A stretch of 37,150 bases of DNA, taken from the NCBI GenBank assembly GCA_944320485.1, contig CALUHQ010000039.1:1-37150 (forward strand), read 5' to 3'. This document shows positions 18,543 to 29,614 of this stretch, piece by piece (the stretch's first letter is position 1; every line of letters begins with the position of its first letter). This DNA is from Candidatus Methanomethylophilaceae archaeon. Lineage in GTDB: Archaea > Thermoplasmatota > Thermoplasmata > Methanomassiliicoccales > Methanomethylophilaceae. Position numbers and translations under genes: made by a program. Under the pieces are notes generated by a model. The model worked only from the letters and a program-made list of their open reading frames with translations. It was not told where the DNA came from and did not search any database.

Positions 18543-19244
18543 ATGGATTTCGACGACGCGCTGGCACGTCTGGAGAGGGGCAACGCGATCCTCTTCCGCA
18601 TGGACAGCCCGTGCCTGGCACAGTTGGCCGGGCGGCTCTCGTCGGCGGACCGCAGGACGGTCGTGCTGTGGGGGCTGGAATGCGCGGGCCGCGTGGCTGA
18701 CAGGCTGAGAGGCATGTTCCCGGAGGACGGGAGGCCGGCCGAGGCCGTCCGCACCTGCACCCTCTGGTCGGAGGGTGCGGTCCGCATGCAGGAAGCGAGG
18801 AGGGCGATCCTGGCGGTCCACGGGATGGCCCGGGACGTCGGGGACCCGATCGTCGCCGCGCTGTGCCATGCGGTCGGTCAGGGCTGCTCGTGCGTCCACA
18901 CCCCCGGCCATGCGATGGGCCTCCCCGTCTACGAGCTCACCGCCATCCTCCTGGAGGGAGGCGACGGATGGGAATCGAGGGCGGAGGACACCATAGACGG
19001 ATACCTGAAGGCACTGGACGAATGCGAGATCAGATCGTCGGAACCCAGGGAATGGGCCGGGTTCCTCCGAGGTCCGGAGAATCGGCGACAAAGCGGACCG
19101 ATCGGCTGCCGGATCCGGGGCTCCCGTCGAGGAGGGGCTTGCATCTGGCGTAGAGGTCCACGGCGGGATGAATGGTCGCCCGGACCCTGCGGGGGCAAGG
19201 GGTTATTATCTCGTCAGAGTATGTTGGATGTATGTTCCAACTAG
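18543..19244 (+). CDS. Imm-5-like putative immunity protein
   Basis: The open frame gives 233 residues from ATG 18543. Residues about 30-160 match the putative immunity protein (Imm-5-like) pattern. That pattern is LWGLECAGRVADRLRGMFPEDGRPAEAV, split here by neutral residues, then LWSEGAVRMQEARRA, HGMARD, a Cys-containing helix and HTPGHAMGLPVYELTAILLEG. The family is all-helical with conserved His; a true immunity role is unproven and no toxin is adjacent. After about residue 185 the sequence turns Arg/Gly-rich and looks non-coding, and the stop overlaps the start of the nifH-nifD-like gene by 13 bases. The real end may be earlier with a frameshift. No convincing ribosome binding site is visible. 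Confidence 0.58.
   Translation: MDFDDALARLERGNAILFRMDSPCLAQLAGRLSSADRRTVVLWGLECAGRVADRLRGMFPEDGRPAEAVRTCTLWSEGAVRMQEARRAILAVHGMARDVGDPIVAALCHAVGQGCSCVHTPGHAMGLPVYELTAILLEGGDGWESRAEDTIDGYLKALDECEIRSSEPREWAGFLRGPENRRQSGPIGCRIRGSRRGGACIWRRGPRRDEWSPGPCGGKGLLSRQSMLDVCSN
19201..19210 (+). promoter_or_regulatory. TATA box of the nifH-nifD-like operon
   Basis: GGTTATTATC is an archaeal box A. Initiation about 25 bases downstream falls at the ATG (19232), so the mRNA is predicted to be leaderless and the operator at 19224-19240 straddles the start point. Confidence 0.6.
19224..19240. promoter_or_regulatory. Operator 1, TTGGATGTATGTTCCAA (nifH-nifD-like)
   Basis: This 17-bp palindrome, TTGG-N9-CCAA, extends to TTGGA/TCCAA. 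It covers the predicted transcription start and the start codon. It is one of six copies placed before accessory transcription units. A repressor bound here would block polymerase entry. Confidence 0.72.
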
Positions 19245-21364
19245 CGGTGTACGGCAAGGGCGGCATCGGGAAATCGACGATGTCGGCCAACATCTCGGTG
19301 GCCCTAGCCGAGAGGGGCCTCAGGGTCATGCAGATCGGATGCGATCCGAAGCACGACTCCACGAGGCTGCTCCTGGGAGGCAGGGCTCAGCGCACCGTGC
19401 TCGAATACGTGAGGGAGACGCCGATCGGCAGGAGGAGGCTCGAGGATGTCATCGAGGATGGCACGGCGGGGGTGCTCTGCGCCGAGGCCGGCGGACCCGA
19501 ACCCGGCATAGGCTGTGCCGGACGCGGGATACTCACGACGTTCGACACCCTGAAGAGGCTGGGGGCCGACGACATCGGTGTGGACGTCAGGGTCTACGAC
19601 GTACTCGGCGACGTAGTCTGCGGGGGATTCGCGGTACCGCTGAGGAGCGAGTACGCCGACGGGGTCATCCTCGTGACCTCTGGGGAGTTCATGGCGATGT
19701 ACGCGGCGAACAACATCATGCGCGGGTTGCTCAACTTCGACAACGGGAAGCCGAGGCTCCTCGGCATCGTTCTCAACTGCCGCGGGGTGGAGGGGGAGAG
19801 GGAGACCGTGGAGAGGTTCGCGAAGGCCACGGGCACGGAGGTCATCGCGATGATCCCCAGGGACCGTCTGTTCGCAGATGCGGAATCCCGGGGGCACACC
19901 GTCATGGAGCTGCATCCGGACGGGGCCATCGCGGAGCAGGTGCGCAGAATCGCGGACCGCATCGTCGCGGCCTCCGAGGGAGGGGGCGTGACGTTCTTCC
20001 CCCGTCCGCTGGATGACGCTCAGCTCTCCGATCTGGCGGCCGGCAGGGAGATAAGGCCGCCATCGGTCGAGGTCCCGCAACGAACCGTCTGCGGCGGATG
20101 CCGCAGGAACTCCATAAGGGATGCGAGGGTGATGAACTCCTGTTCCGCCTACGGCGCCGCGTCCGCCTTCGCGAGGCTCGGCGACACCGCCGTCATCGTG
20201 CACGGCCCCATGTCCTGCTCGTACCTCATGGCTATCACCCGCGCAAAGGCCATCATGGGACTTTATGAGCAGGGTCTGTACGAAACGGGTCCGACCCTGG
20301 ACATCCGCTCCTCCATGATGGACGATTCCGCCGCAATATTCGGAGGGGACGGGTTCCTGAGATGGGCGTTGGAGAATGCGATCGGCGAGGGCTACCGCAA
20401 GGTCGCGGCGGTCACCACCTGCATGCCGGGCATCATCGGGGACGACTGCAACTCCGTCGTGCAGTCGGTGCGCCTCGCGCATCCGGATGTCCGCATCGAT
20501 CTGATATCGGCGGACGGGGACATCAAGGGCGAGTTCAACGACGGGTTCGAGATGGCCTCGGAGGCCATCGCCGACCGCATAGACCCGTCCGTGGAGCCGG
20601 AGAGGGGTCTCGTGAACCTCGTCTCCAACTCGTTCTTCGACATCCAGTCCCTGTCGAACCGTCGGGAGCTGGACAGGATCCTCGCGTCCTTCGGCCTCAT
20701 GGTCAACTGCAGGTTCATCGACGACGGTTCCCCCGCGCCGCCGGAGGAGTTCTGCCGCGGGGAGTTCGACATACTCATGAGCGACACGAGGGGCGCGAGG
20801 CACATGATGTCCCTCGTCACGGAGCACACGGGCCGCGAGCCGTTCCCTGCCCCGATGCCGCTGGGCATCCGCGGATACCTGGATTGGGTCCGCGAGGTGG
20901 GACGCCGCACCGGCAGGGAGGTGCTGGCCGAGAGGGAGGCCGAACGCGCCGGGAGGGAGTATTCCGACTTCATCGACGTACACCGCCCTGCGATGGAGGG
21001 GAGGCGCGTCATAGTCACATGGAGGATGGGGTCCAACCCGGACTGGCTCATCGACACCCTGCGTGACCTGGACGTCGAGATCCTCCGGATCGGCACCGCC
21101 CCGAACCCGCGCAAGACCGTCAGGTCCGGCTCCGATTCCAGGTACGGCATCACGGAGGACTACACGGAGGAGGACCTTTCGAGGGACCTCGAGGAGATGA
21201 GGCCCGACCTGCTGATAGGGGACCTCCCGCGTCCCGTCCCCGATGGTACGGCGTTCGCCAAGATCAGCAGGATGGGGGTGGGCTACCGTCCGGTGTTCGA
21301 CTACGTCCGGTATCTCGAGAACATCCCCCGCATCCCGGCGGTCGAGGGGTGGAGGTTGCCATGA
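19232..21364 (+). CDS. NifH-NifD-like fusion (nitrogenase-like reductase)
   Basis: The product is 710 residues. Residues 1-265 are a NifH/BchL-type ATPase: P-loop GKGGIGKST (8-16), GCDPKHDSTR, and both Cys that bridge the [4Fe-4S] cluster of the homodimer, C95 (GIGCAGRG) and C130 (DVLGDVVCGGF). After a linker with C287-G-G-C290 comes a NifD/BchN-like domain with C304, C329 (HGPMSC) and C397 (TTCMPGIIGDD). These are spaced 25 and 68 residues, close to the three P-cluster Cys of NifD. I find no FeMo-cofactor Cys/His ligands, so N2 reduction is unlikely. Fusion of the two components in one chain is unusual. ATGA overlap couples it to the NifK-like gene. ATG 19232 gives the canonical NifH start. 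Confidence 0.88.
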   Translation: MFQLAVYGKGGIGKSTMSANISVALAERGLRVMQIGCDPKHDSTRLLLGGRAQRTVLEYVRETPIGRRRLEDVIEDGTAGVLCAEAGGPEPGIGCAGRGILTTFDTLKRLGADDIGVDVRVYDVLGDVVCGGFAVPLRSEYADGVILVTSGEFMAMYAANNIMRGLLNFDNGKPRLLGIVLNCRGVEGERETVERFAKATGTEVIAMIPRDRLFADAESRGHTVMELHPDGAIAEQVRRIADRIVAASEGGGVTFFPRPLDDAQLSDLAAGREIRPPSVEVPQRTVCGGCRRNSIRDARVMNSCSAYGAASAFARLGDTAVIVHGPMSCSYLMAITRAKAIMGLYEQGLYETGPTLDIRSSMMDDSAAIFGGDGFLRWALENAIGEGYRKVAAVTTCMPGIIGDDCNSVVQSVRLAHPDVRIDLISADGDIKGEFNDGFEMASEAIADRIDPSVEPERGLVNLVSNSFFDIQSLSNRRELDRILASFGLMVNCRFIDDGSPAPPEEFCRGEFDILMSDTRGARHMMSLVTEHTGREPFPAPMPLGIRGYLDWVREVGRRTGREVLAEREAERAGREYSDFIDVHRPAMEGRRVIVTWRMGSNPDWLIDTLRDLDVEILRIGTAPNPRKTVRSGSDSRYGITEDYTEEDLSRDLEEMRPDLLIGDLPRPVPDGTAFAKISRMGVGYRPVFDYVRYLENIPRIPAVEGWRLP

Positions 21365-22623
21365 GGCGGCAGCTGCCCGACGGGCTGACGGGTTCGATCA
21401 TGGCCGTGGAGGGGATAGCGGATGCGGCCGTGTTCCTCCACGGTCCCGGAGGATGCAGGGTGCGCCACACGGTCATATCCTCGGCGGTGCTCCCCCGGGA
21501 AGGGTCCGAGCCGTTCACCGCCCCGTACTACTACGGCTACCCGAGGGTGCCGTCCTCTTATCTCGACGAGTACGATTTCATCAACGGCGCCTACTACAAG
21601 TCGTCCGAGGGCCTTGGCGAGGTCGCATCCAGGCGCCCGTCGCTCGCGGTGGTGATCGATTCTCCCGGGGCGGGGCTGATCGGGGACGACCATTGGCGCG
21701 CCATCCGCGAGAACGGGCTGGAGGACGTGGCGATGCACATCCCGGAGTCGATGGCCTCCGTCCCGGCGACGCGTGCGTGCGGCCGCACGCTGGCATATGT
21801 GATGGAGCACCTGGATCCCGAGCGGGGCGACGTGCGCGGAGGGACGGTGAATCTCCTGGGGCTGTCGCTCATGGACAAGGATTGGAGGGCGGCCAGGGAC
21901 GAGCTGGCATCTCTCCTGAACGACATGGGTCTGGAGGTCGTATGCTGTCCGGGTGCCGGTTCCTCGGTGGACGAGCTGGTCCGTTCCGTCGATTCCGAGT
22001 TCAACGTGGTCGTCTGTCCGGAGATGTGCTCCGGGCTGACGGAATGGTACGGGTCCCGCGGGGTCCCCTCCATACGCTCCGGGAAGGGGGCGCCGGTCGG
22101 CTTCGATGCCCTCGAGGCATGGGTCATGGCGGTCGCGGATGCGACGGACAGGGACCCCTCCAAGGCACTGGGGAGGATAGACGCCTGCGGACGGGAGGTG
22201 GCGCGCAGGTTCACGGGGATGCGCTACAACGCCGTCCGCATCCGCGGGCTCACGTTCTCGGCCGCAGGGACGGCATCCATAATCAGGCCGTTGACCGAGT
22301 GGCTCTATGGATATCTGGCCATGGCCCCGGCCGCCGTCGCAGTCGATGACGGTGCGGACGAGGTCGAATCCGAGGCCTTGGCATCATTCCTTGAACGTGT
22401 GGGCTTCCAGGAGGCATGGAGCAGGGAGCCCGTCCCTTCGGGAGTGGTCCTCTGCGAGGGGATCGCCGCCCTGACGATGAAACTGGCAGGCGATTGCCGC
22501 GCCGGAATACCGATCGGATATTCGTCCATGGGCATCGACGACATCATGCCCAGGCCGGTATACGGGATGCAGGGGGCGATGTACATCCTCGACGAGATCC
22601 TCCATGGGGTGAGGGGGACTTGA
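21361..22623 (+). CDS. NifK/BchB-like nitrogenase component 1 subunit
   Basis: This 420-residue protein starts within the stop of the fusion gene (ATGA). The N-terminus is short: HGPGGCRVRH gives C32, the equivalent of NifK Cys95. The third P-cluster Cys position is replaced (VVIDSPGAGLIGDD), and no N-terminal Cys precedes C32. It therefore offers one ligand. With three Cys in the NifD-like domain that makes a 3+1 site like the single [4Fe-4S] cluster of dark protochlorophyllide reductase, where BchB gives an Asp. Later blocks, TVNLLGLSLMDKDWRAARDEL, split by a turn, and GVPSIRSGKGAPVGFDAL, fit the Rossmann-like repeats of the family. It is the probable partner of the fusion protein. Confidence 0.82.
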   Translation: MRRQLPDGLTGSIMAVEGIADAAVFLHGPGGCRVRHTVISSAVLPREGSEPFTAPYYYGYPRVPSSYLDEYDFINGAYYKSSEGLGEVASRRPSLAVVIDSPGAGLIGDDHWRAIRENGLEDVAMHIPESMASVPATRACGRTLAYVMEHLDPERGDVRGGTVNLLGLSLMDKDWRAARDELASLLNDMGLEVVCCPGAGSSVDELVRSVDSEFNVVVCPEMCSGLTEWYGSRGVPSIRSGKGAPVGFDALEAWVMAVADATDRDPSKALGRIDACGREVARRFTGMRYNAVRIRGLTFSAAGTASIIRPLTEWLYGYLAMAPAAVAVDDGADEVESEALASFLERVGFQEAWSREPVPSGVVLCEGIAALTMKLAGDCRAGIPIGYSSMGIDDIMPRPVYGMQGAMYILDEILHGVRGT

Positions 22624-25068: not shown

Positions 25069-25085
25069 TTGGCATATACATCCAA
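25069..25085. promoter_or_regulatory. Operator 3, TTGGCATATACATCCAA (importer ATPase)
   Basis: This perfect TTGG/CCAA palindrome has the same sequence as operator 4 read on the other strand. A TTAAATG box A lies at 25051-25057. Thirteen bases separate it from the ATG at 25099, the same distance as operator 6 to the chlI ATG. Confidence 0.75.
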
Positions 25086-25098
25086 CCGAAGTGGTTTC

Positions 25099-25962
25099 AT
25101 GCAGATAAGAATCGACAACGTGGAGTTCTCTTACACAAGCGTGCCCGTCCTCAACGACATCTCGCTGGACATAGACGGTCCCGCTTTCGTCTCCATCCTG
25201 GGGCCGAACGGTGTGGGGAAGTCCACGCTGATCCACTGCATCAACAAGATTCTGCAGCCGACCTCCGGTTCGGTCTTCATCGACGGCAAGGACGTCAAGG
25301 AGACGTCGATCAAGGAGCTGGCCAAGCAGATCGGATATGTGCCCTATTCGGCCAACGATTCCTTCCCGCTCACCGTGGTCGACACCGTGATGATGGGCAG
25401 GCATCCTCATTCCAAATGGAAGTCCCTCGACAACGACCTCGACGTGGTCTACGACACGTTGAAGATGCTCGGGATCTCGCATCTCGCGATGCGCCAGTTC
25501 AACGAGCTATCGGCGGGCCAGCACCAGAAGGTCATGCTGGCCAGGGGTCTGGTGCAAGAGCCCAAGATCCTTCTCCTTGACGAGCCGACCTCCAATCTGG
25601 ACATCCGGCATCAGCTGGATGTCACGAAGATGCTCAAGCGGCTGTCCGCCGAGAGGGGGATCCTGATCATCATGATCAGCCATGACATCAACATCGCGGC
25701 GAAGTACGCCGACAATGTCATACTGATGTTCCAGGGCAAGATCTTCGACGTCGGTACGCCGAGCGAGGTCATCACGGAGGACAACCTCAGGACGGTCTAC
25801 GGGGTCGAATCCCGCGTGATCGACGACGAGGGCCGTCCGCACGTGATACTCAGGGACGCCCTTCCGATGGACGAGAGGATCAACCCGTCCGCAGTCATGG
25901 CCGGCATCAGGGAGCGCAGGGCCCGCGACAGGTCTTCGGAATCGCAGCAGGTCGAATCGTGA
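25099..25962 (+). CDS. FecE/BtuD-like ABC importer ATPase
   Basis: The product is 287 residues. Motifs are Walker A GPNGVGKST, Q-loop IGYVPYSANDSFPLTV, signature LSAGQHQK, Walker B ILLLDEPTSNLDIRHQ and switch His in ISHDINIAAKYAD. The short strand-rich N-terminus and the VVDTVMMGRHPH block are typical of ATPases for iron-siderophore, haem and vitamin B12 importers. The signature LSAGQ replaces LSGGQ, as often in this family. It begins a cluster with the binding protein and two permeases but has its own operator. TTG 25069, inside the operator, was rejected as a start. Confidence 0.92.
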   Translation: MQIRIDNVEFSYTSVPVLNDISLDIDGPAFVSILGPNGVGKSTLIHCINKILQPTSGSVFIDGKDVKETSIKELAKQIGYVPYSANDSFPLTVVDTVMMGRHPHSKWKSLDNDLDVVYDTLKMLGISHLAMRQFNELSAGQHQKVMLARGLVQEPKILLLDEPTSNLDIRHQLDVTKMLKRLSAERGILIIMISHDINIAAKYADNVILMFQGKIFDVGTPSEVITEDNLRTVYGVESRVIDDEGRPHVILRDALPMDERINPSAVMAGIRERRARDRSSESQQVES

Positions 25963-25995
25963 TTCTTGTGGAATGGGACTTTTCGATTGTGAGAA

Positions 25996-26038: not shown

Positions 26039-27418
26039 ATGGAAAAGAAGACAGTGACCATCATCGCGGCTGTCGTGGTCGTGGCGATAGTCGTAGTTGC
26101 CGCCGTGCTCGTCGGGTTCGGCGGCAACGGAGGCGACGATTCCTCCGGGGATTCCGAGATCGCCTCCCAGCTCCAGATCAGGGGCAACGCCAACGACGAC
26201 TACACCATCGACGACAAAGACATGGAGATACTCGAAGACGTGATGGCCGGCGAGAGATCCATCTCGGATTATCCTCTGGCCGATGTCAACAACGACGGTA
26301 ACGTCGATGAGACGGACAAGCAGCTTCTGCAGGACCTGATCGATAGGAAGGACGGAACCACCGTGTACGTCCTCTGTCTGGATGTGAACGGCGAACCCAC
26401 CACCGTCTCATGCACCTACCCCCTGAGGGATGTCGTCCCCTACGGGACCAATATACAGCTACCAACCCTCTATGCGAACGGCGGTCAGTATGTGGCCGGA
26501 TATTTCGTCAGCAGCTATGAGACTGCCGAGAGCTCCATCAGCGACAGCGCTGTCGACCTCGGTGGAAGTCAGCGTCAGATCAGTGACGCGGCATGGAAGA
26601 ACTTCACCGCACTGGATGCAAACACCGAAGGAGGGCTCGGTGCGCTGCTCGTGGATTATAGCGGTATCGCCCAGATCACGGATGTCCGTGCAGCCGATCT
26701 CGAGGCGGCCGAGATCCCCATGATCATCTATTCCTCGGCGGATGCGATTTCCGAGATCACCACCGTCCTGACCCTCGGATTCCTGTTCGGAGGGGACTGC
26801 GAGACGATCGGCGTGGAATACGCCCAGAAGAGCTGGGACATCATCAATCAGATCGATGAGGCGGTCGGAGGGCTGTCCGATGACGACAAGTGCAGCTACA
26901 TCTGCTGCACGATGTACATCTACATCTGCGAGAATGACTCCACCTTCAACAGTAGCGCATCCACCGCCGGTGGACTGCCCTACTACGCTGTCAATCAGGA
27001 TTTCGCTGATACGTATACCGGCGACGGATCGACGAAGATGCAGAGTGTCGAGGCCCTGTCCAATTTCACGGACGTGGGTGCCATCCTCAACAACCGCTCG
27101 ATGGACTGGGGTCTAGACGCAGCCGGGATCGAGGACCTCGTCATAGACACATGGGACCACGACAACAAGGGGGTCTCCTCGACCATGTACTTCAAGGGGT
27201 TCGAGGACAGGCTCGTCTACATCAACAACCTTCTGCCCGGAGCCGTCAAGGTCGCCTACATGGCCCATGCGATGTATGGCGATGATTTCTCCAGGGAGTG
27301 GGCCGATGGGGTCCTTCAGGACTTCATAGACATGGGCACCGCACCTCTCGATGGACAGACTCTCGACACAATCCTCGCCTACATCGATCACGACCTCTAC
27401 ATGGAAGTGACCGCCTGA
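26039..27418 (+). CDS. Dockerin-bearing substrate-binding protein of a FecB-type importer
   Basis: The product is 459 residues. Residues 6-27 are a hydrophobic anchor (VTIIAAVVVVAIVVVAAVLV); no lipobox Cys is visible. Residues about 46-106 form a dockerin-type-I-like pair of Ca-binding loops (NANDDYTIDDKDMEIL and DVNNDGNVDETDKQLLQDL). The rest resembles periplasmic-binding-protein class III domains of iron, haem and B12 importers, with YPLRDVVPYG, IAQITDVRAADLEAAEIPMI and LTLGFLFGGDCETI. It presumably captures the ligand outside the cell and passes it to the two permeases. ATG 26039 was chosen because earlier in-frame ATGs precede or lie in operator 4. The binding domain is Tyr/Asp-rich. The ligand is unknown. 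Confidence 0.86.
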   Translation: MEKKTVTIIAAVVVVAIVVVAAVLVGFGGNGGDDSSGDSEIASQLQIRGNANDDYTIDDKDMEILEDVMAGERSISDYPLADVNNDGNVDETDKQLLQDLIDRKDGTTVYVLCLDVNGEPTTVSCTYPLRDVVPYGTNIQLPTLYANGGQYVAGYFVSSYETAESSISDSAVDLGGSQRQISDAAWKNFTALDANTEGGLGALLVDYSGIAQITDVRAADLEAAEIPMIIYSSADAISEITTVLTLGFLFGGDCETIGVEYAQKSWDIINQIDEAVGGLSDDDKCSYICCTMYIYICENDSTFNSSASTAGGLPYYAVNQDFADTYTGDGSTKMQSVEALSNFTDVGAILNNRSMDWGLDAAGIEDLVIDTWDHDNKGVSSTMYFKGFEDRLVYINNLLPGAVKVAYMAHAMYGDDFSREWADGVLQDFIDMGTAPLDGQTLDTILAYIDHDLYMEVTA

Positions 27419-27458: not shown

Positions 27459-28550
27459 ATGGAATACGAAGAGGAAGGGCTCACGAGAGACGGGCTTAAG
27501 GAGGAGTACCATCATGCCATCGCCCGGAAGATCATCCTTCTGACGGTCTGCGTACTGGGGATAGTCCTCTTTGTAGGATTGCTCTCCCTATCGAATTACG
27601 AGGGTGTGGGTCTGAAGGAGACCTACGAGATCATCTGGAACCACATACTTGGCAACGAGTACCCTTCCAAGTCTCTGTTCTGGTGGGCGGACCGCTACAT
27701 CTGGAACACGGCGTTCCCCCATGCCCTGGCAGCGATAATTGCCGGAGCCGCCCTGGCGATCTGCGGCACCATGATGCAATCGATGATGGTGAATCCGCTC
27801 GCGGATCCCTACAGCACGGGGATATCGTCCGGAGCCTGCTTTGGGGCGATTTGCGCCATCGTGGTGGGGGTGTCGTTCTCGTCAGTGACCGGCGAGATGG
27901 GGATCGTCACCAACGCGTTCATCGGTGCGATGGTGCCGGCGCTGCTGATCGTGTTCCTGGCCCAGCGTATCCACATGACCCCGGCGACCCTGATCCTGCT
28001 GGGGACCGCGATCTCCTACTTCTTCAACTCGATGATCACCTACCTGATGGTCACCACGGACGCCGATACGCTACAGAGTGCGTACATGTGGCAGGTCGGC
28101 AGCCTCGACGGAATGTCCTGGGATTCGCTTCCGATAATGGCCGTCGTGACGGTCATCGGTTCCGCGATCGTGATGCTCCTCTCCTCCAAGCTGAACGTCA
28201 TGTCGCTCGGCGAGAACAGCGCCATCAGCCTGGGGGTGGACGTCGAGAGGTTCCGTCTCCTCTGTCTGGTGCTGATGGCGGTGATGACTGCCGCGATCGT
28301 GTCATTCACAGGGATCATAGGCTTCATCGGGTTGGTGGCACCGCACATGGTCCGTCTCGTGATCGGGTCGGACAACAGGTTCGTCGCACCTATCTCCATG
28401 GCCGCAGGGGCATTGCTGCTACTGGCCGCCGATTACATCGCGTTCCAGTTCTCGGATATACCTGTCGGTGTGGTGATGAGCGTCATCGGCAGCCCCGTGT
28501 TCTTCCTGATAATCCTATGGCAGACGAGAAAGGCGGGGGCGATATACTGA
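27459..28550 (+). CDS. FecCD-type importer permease 1
   Basis: This 363-residue polytopic membrane protein is of the FecCD/BtuC family. Diagnostic blocks are GAALAICGTMMQSMMVNPLADP split over a helix-loop, TGISSGACFGAI, LGENSAISLGVDVERFR, and TGIIGFIGLVAPHMVR, the loop that contacts the ATPase. About ten transmembrane helices are expected. The N-terminus (EEEGLTRDGLKEEY) is shared with permease 2, showing duplication. It follows the binding protein after a hairpin and overlaps permease 2 by 34 bases. Confidence 0.93.
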   Translation: MEYEEEGLTRDGLKEEYHHAIARKIILLTVCVLGIVLFVGLLSLSNYEGVGLKETYEIIWNHILGNEYPSKSLFWWADRYIWNTAFPHALAAIIAGAALAICGTMMQSMMVNPLADPYSTGISSGACFGAICAIVVGVSFSSVTGEMGIVTNAFIGAMVPALLIVFLAQRIHMTPATLILLGTAISYFFNSMITYLMVTTDADTLQSAYMWQVGSLDGMSWDSLPIMAVVTVIGSAIVMLLSSKLNVMSLGENSAISLGVDVERFRLLCLVLMAVMTAAIVSFTGIIGFIGLVAPHMVRLVIGSDNRFVAPISMAAGALLLLAADYIAFQFSDIPVGVVMSVIGSPVFFLIILWQTRKAGAIY

Positions 28551-29614
28551 TCGAGGATACCAGGGACGGGTTCCGCGACGAGTACCGGTCCATGAACAGA
28601 AGGAAGGCCATGTTCATACTGGCATTCCTTCTTCTCGCAGCAGGTGCGTTCTTCCTGACACTGGGGTTCGGCATCTATGACATCGGTGTGACGGATGCCG
28701 TGGGGGTGTTCTTCGACCACCTCCTTGGAAATCCCATCGATCCGAAAGATGACTACTATGTCTGGGACGTACGCGTCCCCAGGGCGATCGGGGCCCTTCT
28801 GATCGGTGCGGGGCTGTCGGTGGCCGGTGCCATCATGCAGAATGATTTCAAGAACCCCTTGGCCGAGCCCTACACGATGGGGATATCGTCGGGGGCGTTC
28901 CTGGGTGCCACCCTGAACATAATACTCGGCATATCGATCGTCCCGTTCATCAGCGGGACCGCGACGACCGTCGTGAACTCGTTCATCTGCTCGCTGATTC
29001 CGACGGCTATAATCGTCCTGGTGGCGAAGTACCGCAACCTGACCCCGACGGCCATGATCCTCACGGGCATCGCGGTCATGTTCCTGTTCAGCTCCATCAC
29101 CCAGATCATGATGGTCACCGCGCCGTCCGAGACGATGGCCGATGCCTACGAGTGGAGGGTCGGATCGTTGAGCAGCATGCAGTGGGAGTACATCCCGGTG
29201 ATGCTGATCGTCACCGTACTGATCACGGCGGTCCTGTGGTTCTCCTCCAGCAAACTCAATGTGATGTATGCAGGGGACAGGGCCGCGCAGACGTTCGGGG
29301 AGAATGCGAGGGGAATTCGGGTCTCGACCCTCGTCCTCGTATCGGTCATGACCGCGGTCCTGATATGTTTCACAGGGACCATAGGATTCATAGGCCTCGT
29401 GGGTCCGCACGTGGCAAGGATATTCGTGGGCTCCGACAACCGCTATCTCATCCCCACATCCGCGGCCTTCGGGGCGGCGTTCGTGATACTCGCCGATACT
29501 CTGGCCAAGGTCAGCGGACCGAACGGACTGCCTGTGGGCGTCATATGCTCGATGATCGGCGGGCCGCTCTTCATCTGGATCCTCGTCAGGCAGCGCAAGA
29601 GCGCCTGGATATGA
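28517..29614 (+). CDS. FecCD-type importer permease 2
   Basis: The product is 365 residues and paralogous to permease 1. It has AGAIMQNDFKNPLAEPYTMG, TGISSG-type helix starts and FTGTIGFIGLVGPHVAR. ATG 28517, inside the end of permease 1, gives MADEKGGGDILIEDTRDG, which aligns with the N-terminus of permease 1; the upstream open frame is a shadow. Two different permeases suggest a heterodimeric channel, as in FecCD and FhuB. It converges with the chelatase gene, 68 bases away. Confidence 0.92.
   Translation: MADEKGGGDILIEDTRDGFRDEYRSMNRRKAMFILAFLLLAAGAFFLTLGFGIYDIGVTDAVGVFFDHLLGNPIDPKDDYYVWDVRVPRAIGALLIGAGLSVAGAIMQNDFKNPLAEPYTMGISSGAFLGATLNIILGISIVPFISGTATTVVNSFICSLIPTAIIVLVAKYRNLTPTAMILTGIAVMFLFSSITQIMMVTAPSETMADAYEWRVGSLSSMQWEYIPVMLIVTVLITAVLWFSSSKLNVMYAGDRAAQTFGENARGIRVSTLVLVSVMTAVLICFTGTIGFIGLVGPHVARIFVGSDNRYLIPTSAAFGAAFVILADTLAKVSGPNGLPVGVICSMIGGPLFIWILVRQRKSAWI

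Follow-up and report, generated by a model that had tools for sequence, protein, structure and literature searches.

A conserved module of predicted dockerin fold precedes the receptor domain in one clade of FecCD importers of Methanomassiliicoccales

Results

An ABC importer locus encodes a substrate-binding protein with a dockerin-like module

The window analysed here is a stretch of 37,150 nucleotides (contig CALUHQ010000039.1) from a genome of Candidatus Methanomethylophilaceae, assembled as 1.71 Mb in 83 contigs with a completeness of 88%. It encodes an importer in the order ABC ATPase, substrate-binding receptor (26039-27418) and two FecCD permeases, with a gene for a CobN-type chelatase on the opposite strand beyond the permeases. 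Among named relatives, the closest are MAGs of Candidatus Methanomethylophilaceae, with a receptor 92% identical to that of the window. The features of the locus are as follows:

25069..25962, + strand: ABC ATPase of the importer (PF00005)
26039..27418, + strand: substrate-binding protein with dockerin-like module, 459 aa (open reading frame)
26054..26119, + strand: hydrophobic N-terminal segment, approximately residues 6-27, no lipobox Cys (read by eye)
26171..26341, + strand: dockerin-like module, residues 45-101 (Pfam, profiles, predicted structure)
26186..26221, + strand: loop 1, NANDDYTIDDKD, residues 50-61, Asn at position 1 and no Gly at position 6 (residue tally, pattern)
26282..26317, + strand: loop 2, DVNNDGNVDETD, residues 82-93, canonical dockerin/EF-type loop (residue tally, pattern)
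26354..27415, + strand: receptor domain of FecB/YiuA/CeuE type, residues 106-459 (structure comparison, profile search)
27459..28550, + strand: FecCD permease 1 (PF01032)
28559..29614, + strand: FecCD permease 2, start approximate, domain match 28640-29590 (located in the FecCD permease census)

Elsewhere in the window, a 730-aa frame (19172-21364, +) joins NifH-like (23-290) and NifD-like (324-686) domains and is followed by a second NifD-like protein at 21349-22623. A similarly long NifH/NifD-like frame occurs in the relatives L073 (726 aa) and L089 (792 aa).

The receptor protein starts with a hydrophobic segment; a linker of low complexity, some 17 residues long, leads to the module, and the receptor domain follows. 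Loop residues are numbered from the ATG at 26039, which is matched by the equivalent start of the 92% identical relative in L073; an alternative upstream start lies at 25973. The N-terminal segment, within which residues 14-24 were modelled as a helix of low confidence, is a probable uncleaved membrane anchor. In the whole-protein model, residues 39-459 are ordered (pLDDT 90.4, pTM 0.88) and only about four residues join the module to the receptor domain. The high pTM and this very short join suggest that the module may be fixed relative to the receptor domain. The predicted fold of the receptor domain is that of YiuA, FepB and CeuE (9if3_D, Z 24.6, 306 residues, rmsd 2.9), and the protein is thus a FecB/BtuF-type receptor by fold, co-encoded with FecCD permeases and an ATPase. 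A profile from the whole-protein alignment retrieved 4ovk, 4mo9 and 4hn9 for the receptor part. PF01497 gave no match to the window protein at E≤0.1; relatives do match it (for example L105, E 1.9e-31).

The module has a predicted dockerin fold and near-invariant loops

The original prediction placed a dockerin-like module with two Asp/Asn loops between the membrane anchor and the binding domain, and both the loops and the module were borne out by sequence, profiles and predicted fold. A Pfam search recovered Dockerin_1 (PF00404) in the window protein, yet at 19 bits (E 0.0016), below the curated cut-off of 22.9, while relatives exceeded this value (L107, 25.1; L109, 28.1; L079, 49.4). With a module profile built from relatives (36 rows, the window copy among them), the window copy scored 97.5 bits (E 8e-28). 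A two-loop pattern, written after the loops had been seen, matched one of the 145 open reading frames of at least 80 aa in the window, none of 20,000 shuffles of the whole protein and 7 of 100,000 shuffles of residues 41-105.

Predicted alone, the module adopted a dockerin fold with two calcium-loop/helix repeats (pLDDT 91.4). All 24 entries listed at Z≥2 in a structure comparison were dockerins, the best being 2ccl_B (Z 10.1, rmsd 1.7, 60 residues). Foldseek returned nothing at E≤0.001 for the module alone (best 0.022), as expected for a query of only 65 residues, but its 29 best-ranked rows were all dockerin chains; our assignment of the fold rests on these rows together with the Z-score comparison. 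The profile of 36 receptor-linked modules also found solved PDB dockerins, including 1daq, 2mte and 1ohz, and solved dockerins were likewise retrieved by the module part of the whole-protein profile.

Orthologues carry the module with strictly conserved loop residues. Residues were tallied over 38 aligned sequences; because the whole protein served as query, homologues in which the module has been lost are less likely to be represented. Loop 1 carries Asn at position 1 in 38/38, Asp at position 5 in 36/38 and Asp at position 12 in 38/38, and loop 2 has Asp at position 1 in 38/38, Asp at position 5 in 36/38, Gly at position 6 in 35/38 and Asp at position 12 in 38/38. These residues would place calcium in loop 2 and probably in loop 1. 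Because loop 1 begins with Asn in all 38 rows and has no Gly at position 6 among the residues tallied, it may bind calcium weakly or not at all. Six of the seven invariant columns fall inside the module. Averaged over columns, the commonest residue has an identity of 0.59 in the module and 0.44 in the receptor, where the best 57-residue stretch reaches 0.50, and among rows less than 35% identical to the window protein overall, the module is closer (33-53%) than the receptor (11-34%) in 20 of 20. This exceeds what a passive spacer would need and could indicate a binding surface.

The module is linked to one FecCD permease clade

Receptor homologues were detected in 71 of the 102 family genomes and, with the 38-row profile at E≤1e-10, in 91 of the 147 genomes of the order. 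Throughout Methanomassiliicoccales, a large family of importers has the module immediately N-terminal of the receptor domain. The loci read in six further genomes, which represent three other families of Methanomassiliicoccales, all (6/6) combine the module with a permease and an ATPase; the receptor profile matched the module protein in five, the exception being L173. When the module profile was run on 389 genomes drawn from the phylum, 43 were positive, 37 of them in the order and six in another family. Two of these six were inspected and rejected as receptor modules: both are 835-aa proteins whose dockerins are ordinary and C-terminal, with a loop that starts GD, and neither has a receptor.

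In tandem receptor fusions, each receptor unit is preceded by its own dockerin-like module (L079 6357-9482; L106 936-4166; L105 7127-11044; L087 9164-12439), with three copies in the 1306-aa L105 protein. Some of these fusions carry Big_2 or Listeria-Bacteroides repeat domains ahead of or between the units. By eye, receptors of 760-880 aa (L107 12315-14600, L091 10735-13017, L082 11722-16709) appear to end in two C-terminal repeats of about 150 aa; a Pfam scan of the L107 receptor gave a dockerin match only. In one of three adjacent paralogues (L170 13385-14641, +), an in-frame TAG lies between module and receptor. TAG can encode pyrrolysine in Methanomassiliicoccales.

Since a whole-protein query disfavours module-less homologues, we conducted a census of FecCD permeases in five genomes (G000, the window genome, and G050, G055, G008 and G011), using a single permease query and reading the surroundings of each match. 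Of 63 permeases, 36 accompanied a module receptor, 25 did not and 2 were unassignable. Loop 1 begins GN[AV][ND] in all 26 receptor-linked module rows of these genomes (25 distinct), weak rows included. In a tree of the 63 sequences, one branch separates module from module-free permeases (98 bootstrap / 89 SH-aLRT). The label changes once in 99% of 200 bootstrap trees, and none of 500 shuffles was as low, with the labels partly post hoc (ten set by inspection or module absence, including two reassigned, plus two rows of one cluster set to the module label). Without the post hoc labels, the module label takes 7 changes compared to 20.6 by shuffling. The module looks like a permanent component of a single importer clade. 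In the window genome, two other receptors were found by PF01497, both without the module. A module-clade permease also sits with its ATPase where a 6.5 kb contig ends (L115; G000 C2). No receptor is visible there, and the assembly may therefore lack a second module receptor.

Open reading frames of 48 module loci (some overlapping) were clustered with those of 24 other loci, which include L144 (module at 39 bits, below the 40-bit limit); many module loci are longer stretches. No dedicated partner gene common to the 48 module loci was found besides permease, receptor and ATPase. One family present in 42/48 module loci and 14/24 others resembles antisense shadow frames. CobN was found in 12/48 module loci compared to 1/24 others, in loci that differ in length, a hint that the importers take up metals or metal-tetrapyrroles. 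From the FecCD, CobN and nitrogenase-like neighbours in the window, a metal or tetrapyrrole is a plausible ligand of its receptor. Separately, a family judged CBS-like by eye (for example L109 692-1549, -) occurred in 12/48 module loci and 0/24 others, again of unequal lengths.

No cohesin is found in the window genome or in the other module-bearing genomes searched with a lineage profile

The original prediction also held that the module would attach the receptor to a cell-surface partner; docking to a cohesin is not supported by the searches below. Neither PF00963 nor a lineage-specific profile, built from ten cohesins of the family, matched anything in the window genome (88% complete). PF00963 was positive in 13 of 102 genomes of the family, 11 of them over the cut-off, and 12 of the 13 also hold a receptor homologue, one at only E 1.9e-4. 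However, 59 of the 71 family genomes bearing a receptor homologue gave no cohesin with PF00963. The lineage profile recovered both positive controls and matched none of 20 module-bearing genomes, among them that of the window, its sister and six single-contig genomes (G050, G053, G055, G008, G011, G012). On the results of these two profiles, cohesin docking within the genome was rejected as the main reading, although some genomes could encode a cohesin-like partner that has diverged too far for either profile to detect. The prediction had named missing cohesins together with degenerate loops in orthologues as grounds against itself; no cohesin was found in the window genome, whereas the loops are near-invariant over the 38 sequences.

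Dockerins at the cohesin loci of the family differ from the receptor-linked copies. They have Asp at loop position 1 in 9/9 rows and score 21-47 bits against the module profile, compared to 39-83 bits for receptor-linked copies; because these ranges overlap slightly, it is the loop 1 motif rather than the score that separates them. From this difference and the genomes without a cohesin match, we conclude that two dockerin-like classes exist in the family, of which the receptor class is kept without need of cohesins.

Discussion

We think it reasonably likely that the module is a fixed, built-in, calcium-stabilised rigid stalk for the receptor of one FecCD importer clade, without cohesin docking. 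Since matching cohesins appear to be absent, the module is probably a fixed stalk rather than a plug. A domain of dockerin fold would have become a permanent part of the receptor in this clade of Methanomassiliicoccales; calcium in its loops would stabilise a rigid stalk between membrane anchor and receptor, which could keep the receptor close to its cognate permease, with distance and orientation fixed. Judged from sequence, the calcium-dependent spacer, offered by the original prediction as its second option, fits best.

The module might go beyond a stalk and contact the importer's own permease pair as a calcium-dependent docking or orienting element. Its strict co-inheritance with one FecCD clade, its better conservation than that of the receptor and its presence ahead of each receptor in tandem fusions are all consistent with such contact, but co-inheritance also follows from common descent of the operon, and in known type II importers permease contact is made by the receptor lobes. 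We therefore consider this unlikely, though it is the first alternative we would name. A calcium-stabilised stalk is the simplest function; permease contact is possible and more interesting. More speculatively, and in our view improbably, the dockerin fold may have been re-used as a calcium-dependent importer part that contacts the permease or sets the reach of the receptor, in which case extracellular calcium would control the uptake of metal or tetrapyrrole cofactors in gut methanogens.

We give little credence to the reading that the module is a true dockerin and tethers the receptor to a surface protein or scaffold that bears cohesins, as has been suggested in ANME archaea. The predicted fold, the receptor homologues in 12 of 13 cohesin-positive family genomes and the dockerin-bearing ABC receptors reported alongside cohesins in ANME archaea (PMC9012536) all favour it. 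The receptor is already membrane-anchored, however, and no cohesin was found in the window genome, in 59/71 genomes with receptor homologues (PF00963) or in any of the 20 searched with the lineage profile; the dockerins at cohesin loci are also of another kind, with Asp at loop position 1 in 9/9 against GN[AV][ND] in 26/26. Equally improbable, in our estimate, is the binding of a non-cohesin partner in the cell envelope that clusters receptors: a small domain kept so well at one position of very dissimilar receptors would fit, but none of the neighbour genes shared among the loci codes for an obvious partner, although such a partner need not adjoin. That the module is a functionless degenerate remnant or a chance resemblance, as the sub-threshold Pfam score of the window protein might suggest, is very improbable given the invariant loop residues over 38 sequences, the dockerin fold and the shuffles.

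A dockerin is usually taken, almost by reflex, for one partner of a plug-and-socket pair. In the present case, an entire clade of transporters from a common gut-methanogen order retains the dockerin fold under strong constraint with no socket found. If the stalk reading is confirmed, many dockerins annotated outside cellulosomes could be reinterpreted as calcium domains with a structural role, and the importers of these methanogens, perhaps of needed cofactors, would have a part undescribed for type II importers in the open-licence papers searched.

Those open-licence papers also yielded none on dockerin-module receptors of Methanomassiliicoccales. The combination of receptor and dockerin is itself already known, because dockerin-bearing ABC receptors were reported in ANME archaea. 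The ANME genome paper lists ABC receptors, including NikA/OppA and TroA types, among common dockerin proteins, suggests their attachment via cohesins, and describes many cohesins and scaffoldin-like proteins in ANME groups (PMC9012536); many dockerin and cohesin domains were also counted in ANME-1 and ANME-2a in an earlier review (PMC5244752). The receptors studied here resemble those of ANME as archaeal ABC receptors with dockerin domains (PMC9012536). By description, ANME archaea have cohesins and scaffoldins, whereas most genomes searched here gave none, the window genome included, and the module of the present receptors is N-terminal and fixed in one FecCD-linked clade.

The module shares its fold and two-loop repeat with type I dockerins of clostridial cellulosomes (PF00404; 2ccl, 1ohz, 1daq). 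It differs from them in its internal position between anchor and receptor, in a loop 1 that starts with Asn and has no Gly at position 6, in the Pfam score of the window copy, which is below the cut-off, and in that no cohesin partner was found. With FecB/YiuA/CeuE-type receptors of type II importers the window protein has in common the receptor fold (PF01497 fold) and the adjoining FecCD permeases and ATPase, but its sequence matches PF01497 nowhere at E≤0.1 and it adds the dockerin-fold module. Relative to these systems, the new elements are the missing cohesins, an Asn-first signature in loop 1 and a constitutive link to one permease clade.
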